58,392 nt of DNA from positions 1-58,392 of the forward strand of contig NZ_JH417560.1 of the NCBI RefSeq assembly GCF_000239275.1, in the 5' to 3' direction. This stretch comes from Megasphaera geminata F0357. Its GTDB lineage: Bacteria > Bacillota > Negativicutes > Veillonellales > Megasphaeraceae. Under the pieces are notes generated by a model, which worked only from the letters and a program-made list of their open reading frames with translations, searched no databases and had not been told where the DNA came from. How positions within the stretch are numbered: the first letter of the stretch is position 1; each line of letters begins with the position of its first letter. Both the position numbers and the translations under genes were made by a program. Shown here piece after piece: positions 2,411-46,197 of this stretch.

Positions 2411-3317
2411 TCATACAGTAAATTTCATTGTCTCATCCGGACGGTTTTTCTCGTTTTCCTCTGTAAGAAGGGCTAAGAGTCGTTCAAATTCCGCTTCTGA
2501 TGAGAAAGAGATCTCGATTTTCCCTGTATTTCCCTTTTGAACACGGATGGCAACATTCGTTCCTAAGCGCATTTTCAAACGATCTTGCAAGTCTTCTATA
2601 TATGTATCGACACCCTTCGTAACCGTTCTTTTCTTGCCTTTCAAAAGGTGCTTCACCAAAGTTTCCGCCTGACGCGCACTCAAATCGGTCGCAACAATAC
2701 GTTGAGCAACTTTCTCCTGTACTTCAGGTGATTTTAACTGTAAAAGAGGTCGCGCCTGTCCCATTGTTAAAGCTCCGTTCTCAATAAGTTTCCGCACAGG
2801 CGGAGCAAGAGACAAGAGGCGCATTATATTGGCAACGTGAGAACGACTTTTCCCGACTTTTGCAGCCAATTCATCTTGTTTCCAATTATTCATATCAATA
2901 AGGAGCTTATATGCTGCCGCTTCTTCAATCACATTCAAATTTTCGCGCTGGATGTTCTCAATAAGAGATTATCTCTGTAGCTTTGGTATCTTCACAGGTC
3001 CGAATAAGAGCGGGGATTTCTTTCAACCCAGCACGCTGTGACGCACGCCAACGTCGCTCGCCGGCAATCAGTTCATACGTTTTATCAGCGAGCGGACGTA
3101 CAACAATTGGCTGTACAACACCGTAACGCCGAATGGAATCCGCCAAGGCCTGCAAAGCTTCTTCATCAAAAATCTGACGGGCCTGTCGCGGGTTAGCCGT
3201 GATAGATGTGACGGCAAGCAACGTTATGCCTTCAATTGAAGATATCTCTCTTTTCTGATCTAAGCCGAGAGACCCTAGTCCTCTGCCTAAACCGGCCTTT
3301 TTAGCCGACACGCTCAA
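2411..3317 (-). pseudogene. parB: ParB/Spo0J chromosome-partitioning protein (frameshifted in this sequence)
   Basis: ParB binds parS, loads as a CTP-dependent clamp and recruits ParA and SMC to segregate the origin. The N-terminal part (3317 down to 2958) carries the CTP-binding motif GERRWRA and the upstream VVQPIVVRP block. The rest continues in another frame from about 2970 to 2411 with SLIENIQREN, a helix-turn-helix (QDELAAKVGKSRSHVANIM) and the dimerisation tail. Removing one base near 2969-2972 joins the halves into about 301 residues, a normal ParB length. The start overlaps the end of parA by 17 bases. The break is probably a sequence error, since both halves are fully conserved. Confidence 0.9.
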
Positions 3318-4077
3318 TCACCTCTTTCGCCACTTTCCTGTATACTGTAGCCCCCTTGGAATGCGGGTCATAGGTTATAATCGGTTCACCATAGCTGGGA
3401 GCTTCTCCAAGGCGTACATTGCGAGGAATAATTGTCCTAAAGACTTGATCGCCAAAGTATTTCTTCACTTCTTCCGCTACCTGCAAAGACAGGTTAGTCC
3501 TGCCATCATACATAGTCAGTAAAAGACCGAGAACAGCAAGATTCGCATTCATATCCAAAGCTACAGCCTGCACCGTCTCCGTCAGCTGTGCCAGCCCTTC
3601 AAGCGCATAAAATTCACATTGAACGGGAATAAGAACCGAGTCGGCTGCCACAAGTGCATTGATTGTCAGTAAATCAAGAGACGGAGGACAATCAATGAGA
3701 ATATAATCGAAAGCCCTTCCGCGTGTCGTTCATACATTAATCAAAGCTTTTCTCAACGCGCTTTCCCGTTCCTCCATCGCCACGAGCTCCACAGTCGCAC
3801 CGGCCAGATCCATTGTAGCAGGAGCAATAAAAAGTTTTTTTACAGCTGTTTCCGCGATGACATCATTCATATCCATAGCACCGATAAGACTATCATATGT
3901 ACCGCCTTGAAGAGTGTGTTTATCAATACCAAGACCACTTGTCGCATTGCCCTGAGGATCAAGGTCGACCAAAAGAGTGTGTTTGCCTGCCTCTGCCAGG
4001 CAGGCGCTTAAATTAACGGCTGTCGTTGTTTTTCCTACACCGCCCTTTTGATTTGTAACGGCTATAACCTTAGCCAC
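3301..4077 (-). pseudogene. parA: ParA/Soj partition ATPase (in-frame UGA)
   Basis: A ParA-type P-loop ATPase with the deviant Walker [10 protein letters not shown] near the N-terminus and the conserved [10 protein letters not shown] block. The two open stretches (to 3730, and from there to 3301) are in the same frame and are separated only by a TGA codon (bases 3730-3732 read on the minus strand). Homologues have a variable charged residue here, so CGA to TGA is the simplest change. I chose the GTG start at 4077, giving [13 protein letters not shown], because GAGGTG lies 7-8 bases upstream and a more distal ATG at 4113 would add an unusual leader. Full length would be 258 residues, normal for Soj. 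Confidence 0.9.
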
Positions 4078-4258
4078 CGGACTCACCTCGTCGTATAAAA
4101 TAGTGGGGGACAATACTCACATAGTCTATCGTATAGTATAGCATAAAGACGCGTTTTATACGACAGAAATTATTAGTCCCCACATCTCTATCGCCGCAAT
4201 TATTACAGTGTTATAATAATAAGGAATTATATTAATTAGTGCGAAAAGGATACTATAA

Positions 4259-5118: not shown

Positions 5119-6401
<1,283 letters not shown>

Positions 6402-9925: not shown

Positions 9926-9954
9926 TTGACACATACCCCCATGGGGTATATATA
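9926..9954 (+). promoter_or_regulatory. csoR-copA promoter with overlapping CsoR operator
   Basis: TTGACA at 9926-9931 and TATATA at 9949-9954 are 17 bases apart. The spacer holds ATACCCCCATGGGGTAT (9933-9949), a near-perfect palindrome of the C-rich/G-rich type known as the CsoR operator. CsoR bound here would block RNA polymerase, and Cu(I) binding would release it. Confidence 0.82.
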
Positions 9955-9991
9955 TAAGATATATTCAAGTATATTGCTCAGGAGACTTATT

Positions 9992-10312
9992 ATGGTAAAA
10001 GAGAGCAAGTGTTGCTGCACGACGAACATAAAATTGAAATATCGCAATAAAGAAGACAAAGAATATAGACAACTTGTCTGTCGATTAAATCGTATTGAAG
10101 GACAAATCCGAGGTATAAGAAAAATGCTTGAAGATGATCGTTATTGTGTTGATATCCTAACTCAAGTCAGCGCCGTTCAATCTGCTTTAAACGCGTTTAG
10201 CAAAGAGCTTCTGGGACAACATATCAAAAGCTGTGTCGTTCATGATATTCAAGAAGGAAAGACTGAAGTCGTCGATGAGCTAGTGGTACTTCTACAAAAA
10301 ATGATGAAATAG
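9992..10312 (+). CDS. csoR: CsoR-family copper-sensing repressor
   Basis: A 106-residue all-helical repressor. Copper ligands of the family fit RYCVDIL (first Cys) and HIKSCV (His and second Cys, three residues between). The family core [19 protein letters not shown] is present at about 31-49. An N-terminal KCCC cluster is an addition. Start chosen at ATG 9992, preceded by AGGAG at 9980-9984. The gene follows its own operator-promoter and is 9 bases before copA, so it is an autoregulated copper operon. A nickel or sulfane-sulfur sensor is less likely given the copper ATPase. Confidence 0.92.
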
Positions 10313-10321
10313 GTGATGTAA

Positions 10322-13108
10322 ATGAAGCATGAAAAGTTTGAAGTCACAGGCATGACTTGTTCGGCTTGCTCAAGCCGTGTGGAAAAGGCGGTTTCCCAAT
10401 TACCCGGTATAAACAAAGCAAGTGTTAATCTCCTTACAAACAGTATGCAGGTCGATTTTGACGACTCGGTTTTATCTGAACAGGACATTATCAATGCCGT
10501 TATCAAAGCCGGCTATGAGGCTTTTGTAACCGCTTCTTCCACCGCTCAAGCACGGCCGGTAAAAAATAGCGCCTCATCCGGTGCCGCCGCGGCTGTTACA
10601 GCGATGAAGAAACGCCTTATCTGGTCTGTTATTTTCCTCATTCCGACCATGTACATTGCTTCTCACAATATGTTCAAAGCCGTTTTTGGTCTACCTGTAC
10701 CTGAATATATTGTCTCCCTTTTTGACGGGCCGCAAAATGCGATTACCTATGCATTTGCACAATTTATTCTCATCTTACCAATCCTTTATCTGAACAGACA
10801 TTATTACATAAACGGTTTCAAAAGTCTTTTCCAAGGGGCTCCCAACATGGATAGTCTAGTCGGGCTCGGTTCTGCCGCTTCAGCCTTTTTCGGTATTTTT
10901 GCCATCTTCCGCATCGGCTGGGGACTCGGATACGGCAATATGCTACTCGTTGAAACGTACAGTACAAATCTTTATTTTGAGTCAGCCGGTATGATTGTCA
11001 CTCTTATCACCGTCGGTAAATATATGGAAACCCGTGCCAAGGGAAAAACCAGCGAAGCACTTGAAAAGCTTATAAACCTTGCACCGAAAAATGCCACTGT
11101 AATCAGGAATGATATTGAATCAATTATTCCGGTTAGCGAACTCGTTATCGGCGATGAAATCATCGTTCGTCCCGGCGAAAGCATTCCTGCTGACGGCATT
11201 GTTTCCAAAGGAACAACAAGTATTGATGAATCCGCCATCACAGGTGAAAGTATTCCTGTCGACAAACAACCCGGTGACACGGTTACGGCGGCGACACTGA
11301 ATAAAGCCGGAGCTATCCATATGACGGCCAAACGTATCGGTGCGGATACAACTATCAGTCAGATTATTCACCTCGTTGATGAAGCCAGCAGCAGTAAGGC
11401 TCCAATTGCCAAAACAGCCGATAAAATTGCGGGCATCTTTGTGCCTGTTGTTATTACCATTGCCTTGATCACGACTGCGATTTGGTATTTTTTCATGGGA
11501 GCGGATCCTGAATTCTCCTTTTCTCTCGGCATTTCCGTCCTCGTCATTTCTTGCCCCTGCGCTCTCGGTTTAGCCACGCCTGTAGCAATTATGGTAGGCA
11601 CCGGCAAAGGGGCGGAAAACGGCATCCTTATTAAATCGGGCGAAGCTCTCGAACAAGCACACGTTATTGATACGGTCGTAATGGATAAAACCGGCACTAT
11701 TACGGAAGGAAAGCCTGTTGTCACAGACATTATTCCCTTAGGTATGACGGCTGATAAACTTTTACCAATCGCGGCGGGACTTGAAAGTAAAAGCGAACAT
11801 CCCCTGGCTACGGCCGTTGTGGATTATGCCAAAGACAAAGGCATATCTCCCGTACAGATAAGTAACTTCTCCGCCATTTTCGGCAAAGGCGTTCGCGCTA
11901 ACATTAACGGTGAACCCTGGTATGCCGGCAACGCCCGTCTGATGACGGAAAACAACATTTCCGTTACAACTGTAGAAAAAAAATTGAATCACCTTGCCGA
12001 TGACGGCAAAACACCTCTCCTCTTCGCTACAAAAAATACTGTCCAAGGTATTATTGCGGTCGCCGACATTGAAAAACCGACAAGTTCCCAGGCAATCGAT
12101 CTTTTCAAAAAAATGGGGATCAATGTAATTATGCTCACAGGTGATAATACGCGAACTGCTAAAGCCATACAAAAGCGGCTGCACATTCCTCAAATAATAG
12201 CAGAAGTTTTACCGCAGGATAAAGAAAAATATATTGCTAAACTCCAGGCCGAGGGTCATCAAGTTGCCATGATCGGGGATGGGATTAATGACGCACCGGC
12301 CCTTATGAAAGCCGACCTGGGAATTGCAATCGGCGCCGGCACGGACGTTGCCATTGAAAGTGCCGATGCGGTACTCATAAAAAATGATCTTCTGGATGCC
12401 GTAACAGCTGTCCGCCTAAGTAAAGCCGTTATCAAAAATATTAAAGAAAATCTCTTCTGGGCCTTTATTTACAACATCATCGGTATTCCTCTCGCAGCCG
12501 GTCTCCTCTATCCCGCTTTCGGTATCAAACTTAACCCTGTGATCGGCGCCGCCGCAATGAGTATGAGCAGTTTTTGCGTTGTTATGAACGCTTTGCGGTT
12601 ACGTTTTTTTAACGCAACTTATCCTAATGTTTCACGTGAAACAAGCACTGAACCAAACGAATCCGAAAAAACTACTATACACACCTGCTTGACTATTGAC
12701 GGCATGACGTGTGCCCATTGCCAAAAACAGGTGCATGATGCCCTTTCGGTCATCCCCGGTGTAACAGCCGTAACCGTCGACCTGAAAGGCAAATCGGCCC
12801 GTATTGAAAGTAATCAAGCTATCCGAACATCTGTCTTTGCTCAAGCGATTACGGATGCAGGCTATACACTAATCATTCCTAAGGAGGAAAAACAAATGGA
12901 AACAACATTAAAAATCGAAGGCATGATGTGTAATCATTGTAAAAAACATGTTGAAGAAGCGCTCTCGGCCATGGATGGCGTTACATCCGTAAAAGTCGAC
13001 CTCGAAACGAAAAGCGCCGACGTAAAAGCAATACGTGAAATTTCAATTGATGAATTTACAAAAGTAATTGCTGACGCAGGCTATGAACTCGTAAATATAC
13101 ACAACTAA
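10322..13108 (+). CDS. copA: Copper-exporting P1B-type ATPase with three HMA domains, two at the C-terminus
   Basis: A 928-residue Cu(I) efflux ATPase of the inner membrane. The N-terminal metal-binding domain has GMTCSACSS (Cys13, Cys16). The ATPase core shows a TGES actuator loop (about 305), the membrane CPC motif SCPCALGLATP (about 410), DKTGT (about 457), an HP locus (SEHPLA) and GDGINDAPAL. Two further HMA domains follow the last membrane helices: GMTCAHCQK near residue 795 and GMMCNHCKK near 867. Usual bacterial CopA has its HMA domains only at the N-terminus. The linker before the second HMA encodes a parS site, and the last HMA has its own Shine-Dalgarno and ATG. Confidence 0.95.
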   Translation: MKHEKFEVTGMTCSACSSRVEKAVSQLPGINKASVNLLTNSMQVDFDDSVLSEQDIINAVIKAGYEAFVTASSTAQARPVKNSASSGAAAAVTAMKKRLIWSVIFLIPTMYIASHNMFKAVFGLPVPEYIVSLFDGPQNAITYAFAQFILILPILYLNRHYYINGFKSLFQGAPNMDSLVGLGSAASAFFGIFAIFRIGWGLGYGNMLLVETYSTNLYFESAGMIVTLITVGKYMETRAKGKTSEALEKLINLAPKNATVIRNDIESIIPVSELVIGDEIIVRPGESIPADGIVSKGTTSIDESAITGESIPVDKQPGDTVTAATLNKAGAIHMTAKRIGADTTISQIIHLVDEASSSKAPIAKTADKIAGIFVPVVITIALITTAIWYFFMGADPEFSFSLGISVLVISCPCALGLATPVAIMVGTGKGAENGILIKSGEALEQAHVIDTVVMDKTGTITEGKPVVTDIIPLGMTADKLLPIAAGLESKSEHPLATAVVDYAKDKGISPVQISNFSAIFGKGVRANINGEPWYAGNARLMTENNISVTTVEKKLNHLADDGKTPLLFATKNTVQGIIAVADIEKPTSSQAIDLFKKMGINVIMLTGDNTRTAKAIQKRLHIPQIIAEVLPQDKEKYIAKLQAEGHQVAMIGDGINDAPALMKADLGIAIGAGTDVAIESADAVLIKNDLLDAVTAVRLSKAVIKNIKENLFWAFIYNIIGIPLAAGLLYPAFGIKLNPVIGAAAMSMSSFCVVMNALRLRFFNATYPNVSRETSTEPNESEKTTIHTCLTIDGMTCAHCQKQVHDALSVIPGVTAVTVDLKGKSARIESNQAIRTSVFAQAITDAGYTLIIPKEEKQMETTLKIEGMMCNHCKKHVEEALSAMDGVTSVKVDLETKSADVKAIREISIDEFTKVIADAGYELVNIHN
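12628..12643. other. parS partition site inside copA
   Basis: TGTTTCACGTGAAACA, a perfect 16-bp palindrome identical to the consensus ParB-binding parS of Firmicutes (TGTTnCACGTGAAACA). It lies in the copA linker codons for NVSRET, about 10.7 kb left of oriC and 8.5 kb from parAB. No second perfect copy was seen in the window. Confidence 0.88.
12881..12898 (+). promoter_or_regulatory. Internal ribosome-binding site and start codon in copA
   Basis: AAGGAGG at 12881-12887 is 8 bases before an in-frame ATG at 12896-12898 (CopA residue 859). The same bases encode the linker PKEEKQ. This is as strong as any initiation site in the window and would yield the last HMA domain as a separate protein. 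Confidence 0.65.
12896..13108 (+). CDS. Putative internally initiated CopZ-like copper chaperone
   Basis: Nested in frame at the end of copA, this 70-residue product starting METTLKIEGMMCNHCKKH is exactly one HMA domain: beta strand, MxCxxC metal loop, helix, and a closing DAGYEL strand. Its size and layout equal the free copper chaperone CopZ. No separate copZ is seen in the operon. Making a soluble chaperone from within copA has a precedent in E. coli, which makes one from the copA message by programmed frameshifting. Whether both the fused and free forms are made here cannot be decided from sequence. Confidence 0.5.
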   Translation: METTLKIEGMMCNHCKKHVEEALSAMDGVTSVKVDLETKSADVKAIREISIDEFTKVIADAGYELVNIHN

Positions 13109-23007: not shown

Positions 23008-23142
23008 TTAAGCAGAAAGTTTCTTTCTACCTTTCATGCGACGTTTTTTTAAAACCATACGGCCGCCTTTCGTTTTCATTCTTTCACGAAAGCCATGTGT
23101 TCTTTTCTTCCACAAGTTATTCGGCTGAAATGTTTGTTTCAA
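23008..23142 (-). CDS. rpmH: 50S ribosomal protein L34
   Basis: A 44-residue basic protein starting at TTG 23142 (revealed by [20 protein letters not shown] and ending GRKKLSA), the complete L34 pattern. A GGGGGG-rich Shine-Dalgarno lies about 7 bases before the start. It is the first gene of the leftward origin cluster. Confidence 0.96.
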
Positions 23143-23478
23143 ATGAAGCACCCCCCTTTTACACACAGTCTTATGAACCTACACTATAATAGTGTAATTA
23201 TACTCAATCGACTACATACTGTCAATGAAAGCTTCCATCTTATCTATCAACAGGTTAATTAATTTAATGAGGTCAGTCTATTCCCTTTACAACTATTTTA
23301 GTGTAAAATGTGGATAGCTATTAAAAGTTATCAACAGATTATTAACAATTGTTGATAACTTTGTTTTTCTTTAAAGTTGTGGTATTTATTAAATGATATA
23401 TGTTTCTTTCCACACGATTATGCACATTACAGCATGTTTAAATCATAATCATTCTTACAGAAAGGATTTACAGGTTAT
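23143..23478. other. oriC: oriC, left part, with DnaA boxes
   Basis: The AT-rich 336-base space between divergent rpmH and dnaA contains DnaA-box matches: TGTGGATAG (23309-23317), TTATCAACA (23328-23336), TGTTGATAA (23350-23358) and TTATGCACA (23418-23426). The two central boxes face each other around ATTAAC. The gene order rpmH-oriC-dnaA-dnaN is that of Firmicute origins. The dnaA promoter must lie here too but I cannot place it firmly. Confidence 0.85.
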
Positions 23479-25002
23479 ATGGAAACGGTAGACATTACAA
23501 CATTATGGATTACCATGTTAGATAAACTGAAAAAAACTTTGCCGCCGCAAATTTATAATACATGGATCGAGACATCCCTCATTCCTTATTCCTTTGAAGA
23601 AAATGTATTCACTTTAGATACGACAAACAACTTCATTTGTTCATTCATTACAAAAAAATATACAAAGCTTCTCGAAAATACAGCTTCATCCTCTCTGGGC
23701 AGGCCTGTAAGGGTTCGTCTTATTCACAGCGAAAGTTTAATTATAGATAAAGAGACTGCTGCAGCGGTAGAAAAAACAGATAATATATATGAAGACAACA
23801 CATATAAATCAAAAGAAAAAATTTTTAAAACTGCTGACCAACAATCTACTGAATCATATGAATCCGAACCGCTTGAATATTGTCAAAAAATAAAATTAAC
23901 GCCCTTTGCCGATACTGATTCAAAAATAGTTCCGTCTGCCGAAAATCCTTCTATATCACATATAGGAGTTTCTACTTTAAATGATGCCTATACTTTTAAC
24001 ACATTCATCATCGGCAACAGTAACCGTATAGCCCATGCAGCCGCTCTTTCCATTGCCGAAGCACCGGCAAAAAAATATAATCCTTTCTTTATTTACGGCG
24101 GCAGCGGTCTCGGTAAAACTCATCTTATGCACGCCATAGGGCATCATATTCTTAAACAATTCCCAACCATGTGTTTACGTTGTATTACAAGTGAAGATTT
24201 TGCTAATGAACTTATTCAATCCATTCAAGATCGCAATTCTGAAAGCTTTCGTCAGCGTTATCGTAATATAGATGTCTTACTCGTTGATGACATCCAATTT
24301 CTCGAAAGTAAAGAGCATACTCAAGAAGAATTTTTTCACACCTTCAATAAACTATATCAAGATCATAAACAAATGGTTTTTACCAGTGATCGGCCGCCGC
24401 AAGATATTAAAAAATTGGAAGATAGATTGCGTTCACGTTTTCAAGGCGGTACAGTAGTCAGTATAGAACCTCCCGATTTAGAAACAAGAACAGCTATATT
24501 GCGCAATCGTGCTTCAGTAGAAAATATAAAAATACAAAAAGAAGCTATCGACTACATTGCCTCTAATGTAAGCGAAAATATTCGTGAGCTTGAAGGAGCA
24601 TTTATACGAGCTCAAATGCAGGCTTCCGTAGAAAAATCACCTATTACCTTGGAATTAACTCAACGCGCGTTAAAAGAACTAATCAAAGATAAAAATGAAA
24701 AAAAATATATTACGATAGATGAAATAACTAAGGTTGTCTGTCATTATTACAAGGTTAAATATGAAGACCTCATGAGTAAAACAAAAATGAAAAAAATTGC
24801 TTATCCCAGACAAATCGCCATGTACCTCTGTCGTGAACTGACAGATAATACATATCCCCATATAGGCGCAACCTTTAACGGCAGAGATCATACAACAGTT
24901 ATGCATGCATGTACTAAAGTTTCTAAAAATATGGAAAAAGATGAATCTTTAAAAACAACGATAGAACAGTTAAAAAAATTAATCACTAATGTGAACAACT
25001 AA
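23479..25002 (+). CDS. dnaA: Chromosomal replication initiator DnaA
   Basis: A 507-residue AAA+ initiator, slightly longer than the usual 450 owing to a long Ser/Thr/Glu-rich domain II (about residues 95-165). Domain III has Walker A GGSGLGKTHLM (about 210) and Walker B VLLVDDIQF (about 270). Domain IV ends with the DNA-contact signature GRDHTTVMHACTKV. It unwinds the origin and loads DnaB. The start ATG at 23479 is preceded by AAAGGA at a rather long spacing. It is flanked by DnaA boxes on both sides. Confidence 0.97.
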   Translation: METVDITTLWITMLDKLKKTLPPQIYNTWIETSLIPYSFEENVFTLDTTNNFICSFITKKYTKLLENTASSSLGRPVRVRLIHSESLIIDKETAAAVEKTDNIYEDNTYKSKEKIFKTADQQSTESYESEPLEYCQKIKLTPFADTDSKIVPSAENPSISHIGVSTLNDAYTFNTFIIGNSNRIAHAAALSIAEAPAKKYNPFFIYGGSGLGKTHLMHAIGHHILKQFPTMCLRCITSEDFANELIQSIQDRNSESFRQRYRNIDVLLVDDIQFLESKEHTQEEFFHTFNKLYQDHKQMVFTSDRPPQDIKKLEDRLRSRFQGGTVVSIEPPDLETRTAILRNRASVENIKIQKEAIDYIASNVSENIRELEGAFIRAQMQASVEKSPITLELTQRALKELIKDKNEKKYITIDEITKVVCHYYKVKYEDLMSKTKMKKIAYPRQIAMYLCRELTDNTYPHIGATFNGRDHTTVMHACTKVSKNMEKDESLKTTIEQLKKLITNVNN

Positions 25003-46074: not shown

Positions 46075-46197
46075 GTGCGTGATAGCCTGTTGGGGCTTGT
46101 GCAATGAAGACCTATGAACCTCGTCAGGTCCGAAAGGAAGCAGCGATAAGTAGCCATTTTCATGTGCCACGAGGGAACCTGGCAAGCTATCACACAC
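46075..46197 (+). ncRNA. ffs: Signal recognition particle RNA (small, 4.5S-like)
   Basis: The universal SRP loop is present: GACCTATGAACCTCGTCAGG at 46119-46138, GGTCCGAAAGGAAGCAGC (about 46137-46145) with the GGAA tetraloop-type segment and the asymmetric-loop AGCAGCGATAAG. The outer helix pairs GTGATAGC (46079-46086) with GCTATCAC (46186-46193). Together with Ffh it targets nascent membrane proteins. The gene is between the OmpA-like gene and dnaX, next to dnaX as in many Firmicutes. Ends are set by the helix and are approximate. Confidence 0.95.

Follow-up and report, generated by a model that had tools for sequence, protein, structure and literature searches.

Why does a gene for a copper pump carry, within its coding sequence, a perfect copy of parS, the site at which ParB, in other systems, loads with cytidine triphosphate (CTP) and from which it slides along the chromosome? 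The question is raised by a 58,392-nt stretch of DNA from Megasphaera geminata F0357 (contig NZ_JH417560.1), hereafter the window, whose positions serve as coordinates throughout; G and L numbers denote the genomes and loci with which it was compared. At 12628-12643 of the window the 16-bp palindrome TGTTTCACGTGAAACA lies in the 3' part of copA, and we conclude that it is very probably a genuine chromosomal parS, a centromere site that the Megasphaera family has kept inside this gene. The features needed to follow the argument are these:

12628..12643, no strand assigned: parS, 16-bp palindrome TGTTTCACGTGAAACA, exact match, read in the copA frame as (N)VSRET
10322..13108, plus strand: copA, gene for a copper-type P1B ATPase, which hosts parS; 928-codon open reading frame with Pfam HMA, E1-E2 ATPase and hydrolase domains
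9926..10312, plus strand: gene for a CsoR-like metal-sensing repressor (PF02583), directly 5' of copA

The open reading frame at 10322-13108 we take to encode CopA from its domain make-up, and the PF02583 gene at 9926..10312 is presumably csoR. Pfam finds three HMA stretches in CopA, one N-terminal and two C-terminal. The first base of the palindrome is the last base of codon 769, and the remaining bases are read as GTT TCA CGT GAA ACA, that is, VSRET at codons 770-774. This places the word between NALRLRFF, in which NALRLR presumably closes the last membrane helix, and the CxxC that comes next, at residue 797, in a variable stretch of the protein that links the ATPase core to the C-terminal metal-binding domains. 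The first-pass annotation had described a perfect parS consensus in the CopA linker whose bases do two jobs, as codons and as a DNA word; the match is indeed exact over the 16-mer, the location between NALRLRFF and the CxxC holds, and the double duty is upheld by the codon test described below. As a 16-bp palindrome the word is identical to the parS consensus used in PMC7383237.

The site is a fixed feature of the family. We compared 17 family genomes from two genera (Megasphaera and one other), 15 of which, the window's included, form the genus set. The exact word is present in 15/15 genus genomes and in 16/17 family genomes. CopA was matched at E <= 1e-100 in 15/17, and 14 of these 15 have the parS within copA, always at the same place after NALRLRFF and in one frame, with the word exact in 13; G015, which belongs to the other genus, is among the carriers. 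In the remaining genome, G004, copA stops before the parS place, and two exact copies of parS lie 49 and 107 bases beyond its stop codon. In five genomes that are 98-99% complete (G002, G005, G006, G008 and G009) the copA site is the only parS at <=1 mismatch, and wherever a genus genome has several such matches they all fall on one contig within ~10.5 kb.

What is conserved is not only the peptide but the DNA that encodes it. An alignment of the 14 family copA genes has 372 columns with an invariant residue (Met and Trp excluded), of which 17 use a single codon throughout, 11 of them for Glu. The only single-codon columns for Val (1/24), Ser (1/20), Arg (1/8) and Thr (1/19) are the parS columns, and the five parS codons make up the longest run of invariant codons in the alignment. 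The constraint reaches into the preceding codon, which ends in T in 13/14 genes though the residue it encodes may be N, D, R, H or T. Under the codon use of family copA, a gene that encodes VSRET would do so with exactly these codons with a probability of 0.0015; the 14 genes are related and so do not count as independent trials, and this relatedness applies equally to the control columns. Because the VSRET codons never vary, unlike those of the remaining columns with a conserved Val, Ser, Arg or Thr, selection acts on the DNA, and the word shows the evolutionary constraint expected of a chromosomal parS.

A chromosomal parS should also be rare and close to the origin. The assembly (1,798,854 bases, 57 contigs, 88% complete) contains the exact word once; allowing 1-2 mismatches adds no match, and a third mismatch adds five. 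Since a reversed control pattern likewise gives five matches at <=3 mismatches in the same assembly, the 3-mismatch matches look like noise. The expected number of exact copies by chance in such a genome is 0.0006 from base composition and 0.0008 from a second-order model, both built on the window's composition. The neighborhood of the site includes the following:

23479..25002, plus strand: dnaA (TIGR00362), which marks the origin side together with the skew turn
23135..23150, plus strand: parS-like word with 3 mismatches, just upstream of dnaA, from the mismatch search
2411..3317, minus strand: parB, frame broken in the assembly; the C-terminal piece keeps GKSR and MGQAR
3301..4113, minus strand: parA, with one in-frame stop at codon 128 in the assembly; both pieces match relatives

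The start of dnaA at 23479 lies 10.8 kb to the right of the copA parS, the cumulative GC skew turns at ~24-26 kb of the window, and the parB- and parA-like pieces (2411-4113) lie 8.5-10.2 kb to the left. Thus the first-pass annotation was right to place parAB and oriC within 11 kb on either side, and the genome scan that it proposed, run here, did not return the many dispersed copies that it had named as the finding that would count against a parS in this genome. In the 13 genus genomes (window included) in which both were found, the copA-linked parS and dnaA share a contig and are ~10-65 kb apart, so that the site is origin-proximal and not dispersed. The word at 23135..23150, which sits at the start of a gene that we take to be rpmH, was not counted as a second parS, 3-mismatch matches being no commoner than in the reversed control, and it is probably not functional as parS in the window. 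In G007 a parS-like word with 1 mismatch occurs at the matching place (L027 14846).

The lineage also has the protein that would read such a site. ParB scores over the family cut-off in a single open frame in 13/14 relatives, the exception being G011, where none was found. Residues R173 and G201 are reported to contact parS and to be conserved in ParB (PMC7383237); their equivalents are present in 12/13 chromosomal ParB loci (L193 gave no clear reading, and L195, a second, divergent protein of G003, was left out) and in the window's own C-terminal ParB piece. The best solved-structure matches of the G008 ParB are a Spo0J, followed by Noc and ParB entries. An exact search for the 14-bp core of the Noc site, ATTTCCCGGGAAAT, found it in none of the 15 genus genomes. 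We therefore rejected an identity as a Noc-binding site: the core is absent and the reader residues are R/G, not the Noc-type Q173/R201. A parS-type cognate ParB is thus found in the lineage, and the specificity residues of the window's protein speak for ParB and not for Noc.

Several observations pull the other way. The G001 word carries one mismatch, at its outer base, and since G011 and G016 (83% and 87% complete) have no CopA match, 15 rather than 17 genomes could be judged. In some species the copA site is one parS among several: exact copies number five in G013 and three each in G003, G012 and G014, while G001 and G015 have two parS and G008 has two 2-mismatch words near copA. Nor are the genomes independent, as G002, G005, G006, G009 and G010 form one tight clade that contains 4/5 of the single-parS genomes, and in G015 parS and dnaA lie on different contigs. 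The window's own parA is interrupted by an in-frame stop and its parB by a frame break; the ParB pieces score 92.0 and 100.5 bits on the nucleoid-occlusion model TIGR04285 (cut-off 315), higher than their 57.0 and 87.4 on the general ParB model TIGR00180 (cut-off 58.45). The frame of the neighboring purA (5119-6401) is broken too, and three broken neighbors in the parB-parA-purA series suggest an error of assembly, though a decayed par operon is possible.

If the copA site works as other parS sites do, ParB dimers with the usual parS-specific residues would read the palindrome and load there with CTP. Once loaded, ParB would close into clamps and slide over the origin region, and ParB on the origin region would then serve as a handle for ParA (and SMC) in origin segregation. 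The stretch of CopA that joins its ATPase core to the C-terminal metal-binding domains is presumably tolerant and probably disordered; VSRET may thus cost the pump little, and the DNA word could be maintained by ParB.

How far back does the arrangement reach? Order-wide, the exact word occurs in 57/61 genomes and a CopA match (E <= 1e-120) in 55/61. Among the matches listed, CopA and parS lie on the same contig but ~120 kb to 1.1 Mb apart in G018, G019, G020, G024 and G031. There are 40 CopA matches in the order outside the family, and all 15 that were obtained as loci lack the word within 3 mismatches. In a wider set, the best 80 of 588 confirmed copA loci, parS occurs inside copA in the 4 Megasphaera loci (the same genomes as G006, G008, G009 and G010), and no word within 2 mismatches occurs inside copA in the other 76, among which the linker pattern found no C-terminal tail in 2 and a few tails are short. 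A locus from a Selenomonas metagenome-assembled genome (L111) has exact parS ~60-75 bases before and 24 bases after the copA frame. Other families of the order place the word in another gene: among 17 of their genomes parS lies inside parA, in the VSRET frame, exactly in G030, G040 and G041 and with one mismatch in G031 and G032, the exact parA-borne copies, again read as VSRET, standing at L095 9715, L099 9744 and L100 4486. A class-wide search also turned up two genomes, G204 and G205, with 52 and 19 exact copies; in G205 the 10 listed places are spread over seven contigs and their flanks look unrelated. Within the family, a tree of the CopA core, built on 739 columns with four CopAs of family f2 (presumably the Dialister family) as its root, nests G004 beside G015 with a pair support of 90, several surrounding nodes being weak (35-66); a long-branch artefact in this pairing is possible, since G015 is assigned to another genus. 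Because G004 falls inside the family in this tree its state looks derived, and on the simplest reading, with or without such an artefact, the ancestor of the family already had parS within copA and the site later left the coding sequence in G004.

An alternative history, which we consider unlikely, is that parS first lay in an intergenic spacer between copA and copZ and became enclosed in coding sequence through a fusion of these genes. It draws on the parS outside copA in G004 and on the last HMA, which has what looks like a start of its own:

12881..12898, plus strand: Shine-Dalgarno sequence AAGGAGG (12881-12887) and in-frame ATG (12896-12898), before the last HMA

The same arrangement is present in 14/14 family copA genes that have the last HMA. 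In the wider set 70/73 CopA genes with a C-terminal HMA have a 4-base Shine-Dalgarno sequence before the internal Met, as against 151/1838 of the other Met codons that served as control, and with a 5-base sequence the figures are 49/73 and 37/1838. Glu codon choice in the wider set is unbiased at the internal start (GAG 35/73 vs 1860/4036, p = 0.81) and Lys behaves alike, so a linker rich in Lys and Glu could explain the excess; in family copA, GAG is enriched there (11/26 vs 48/663, p = 2e-6). That the internal start yields a free CopZ-like copper chaperone is therefore a suggestive reading only. The capture of parS at a fusion is harder to reconcile with the distribution of the fused gene: linker and C-terminal HMA occur together in 73/80 of the wider CopA loci, Megasphaera included, yet outside Megasphaera these carry no parS within copA. 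Because fused CopA without parS is so widespread, the fusion looks older than parS. The position of G004 inside the CopA tree, several weak nodes notwithstanding, points the same way, its state looking derived.

Another alternative makes the site a regulatory element, in that ParB at parS would tune the csoR-copA operon, or copper-driven transcription would strip ParB and couple copper stress to segregation. The gene does sit behind a metal-sensing repressor, and on plasmids members of the ParB family are able to silence genes close to parS. In P. aeruginosa two intergenic parS repress neighboring genes, as stated in a review (PMC7022226), and in vitro RNA polymerase makes more long pauses and backtracks more often on DNA condensed by ParB (PMC10681803). 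Nevertheless, the repressor gene begins ~2.6-2.7 kb away from the copA parS, and in that same in vitro work the polymerase still traverses ParB-DNA condensates while condensation persists; its authors suggest that the repression reported elsewhere may act at initiation (PMC10681803). Moreover, the loss of Spo0J in B. subtilis leaves the expression of parS-adjacent genes unchanged, according to the review (PMC7022226). We thus hold a regulatory role to be distinctly unlikely. A conflict between copper-induced transcription and ParB at the site, as raised in the first-pass annotation, is possible; a strong effect would be unlikely, given that polymerase crosses ParB condensates and that Spo0J loss is silent in B. 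subtilis, as against the repression seen in P. aeruginosa.

A more elaborate form treats the linker as a signal-bearing spacer, with the main centromere at its 5' side and the ribosome-binding site of the chaperone at its 3' side, where copper-induced transcription through the only parS would transiently reset ParB loading and so tie segregation to copper stress; this we regard as very unlikely.

It is highly improbable that the word is kept simply because CopA needs the peptide VSRET, any resemblance to parS being a coincidence. Every one of the 14 family CopAs with the linker has the same five residues, as such a need would predict, but their codons are just as fixed, including those for six-fold degenerate Ser and Arg, which sets them apart from the rest of the conserved Val, Ser, Arg and Thr columns. 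In the 76/80 wider copA loci without the word (<=2 mismatches) the linkers printed share no such peptide, and G004 lacks the peptide yet has two parS adjoining copA. On the codon test we rejected a constraint at the peptide level. Chance is vanishingly improbable, for although any 16-mer can occur, 0.0006-0.0008 copies are expected per genome and the word recurs at the same place and frame in 14/15 copA genes, so that the genome scan, the family conservation and the expected-copy figures together led us to reject it. A genuine parS maintained within copA is the reading that we retain.

Some parS sites of the family have a further property. There are 29 exact sites in the family, 13 in copA and 16 elsewhere, and 8/29, all outside copA, continue into hairpins whose arms score at least 9, several of which are followed by runs of T in the manner of intrinsic terminators. 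Random positions in the same loci reach this score in 360/200,000 trials, a control to be read in the light of gene ends being richer in hairpins than random positions. The parS-at-apex hairpins are at L021 12354; L023 10960; L024 9985 and 10043; L031 9959; L032 10049 and 10378; and L034 11879. In G004 the copA stop is followed by two parS hairpins, one behind the other, whose T-rich stretches are on opposite strands. Among other families of the order 0/33 parS sites (17 genomes) reach a hairpin score of at least 9, and in L111 0/4 sites do so, with 1/4 at a score of at least 7. In other orders of the class 13/61 unique parS sites, chosen as fetched and not at random, form such hairpins; further loci with parS-tipped hairpins are L200, L201, L205, L211, L217, L237, L238 and L239. 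One more feature of the window lies away from the par region:

46088-46187, plus strand: small signal recognition particle (SRP) RNA gene (RF00169)

The copA site is a clear example of a single DNA word that obeys two codes at once and is conserved across a family. In the species where it stands alone, nature provides a system with one parS, whose centromere could be abolished by synonymous changes that leave the protein untouched, and the debated question of transcription versus ParB loading becomes testable at a native promoter that copper can induce. The site also carries a caution: where the codons of a gene near the origin are constrained, the cause can be chromosome segregation and not protein function. 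Searches of the literature on parS and ParB, on parS in coding sequences and on Megasphaera did not find the copA site, with an earlier listing in the survey of Livny et al. (2007) being possible.

How, then, does the site compare with known systems? Its closest likeness is to the parS of chromosomal ParABS systems, with which it shares the identical consensus (PMC7383237), the proximity to dnaA and a parS-type ParB in relatives; it differs in being fixed over a family inside one gene that is not a par gene and in being the sole copy at <=1 mismatch in several species. The Noc-binding site is a sister palindrome read by Noc, a paralogue of ParB, from which the Megasphaera case differs in its absent core and in its parS-type ParB residues. 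The parS borne by parA (soj) in the same order is read in the same VSRET frame, its host gene being parA and not a metal pump. In P. aeruginosa PAO1, 9/10 predicted parS most likely lie in coding sequences, and the title of that study states that one origin-proximal site suffices (PMC4368675). Those sites resemble the copA parS in being intragenic and differ in their host genes; the available text of PMC4368675 shows no family-wide constraint at the codon level of the sort found here. Since intragenic parS are thus already known, the copA parS belongs to a known kind, of which it is an unusually well conserved example.

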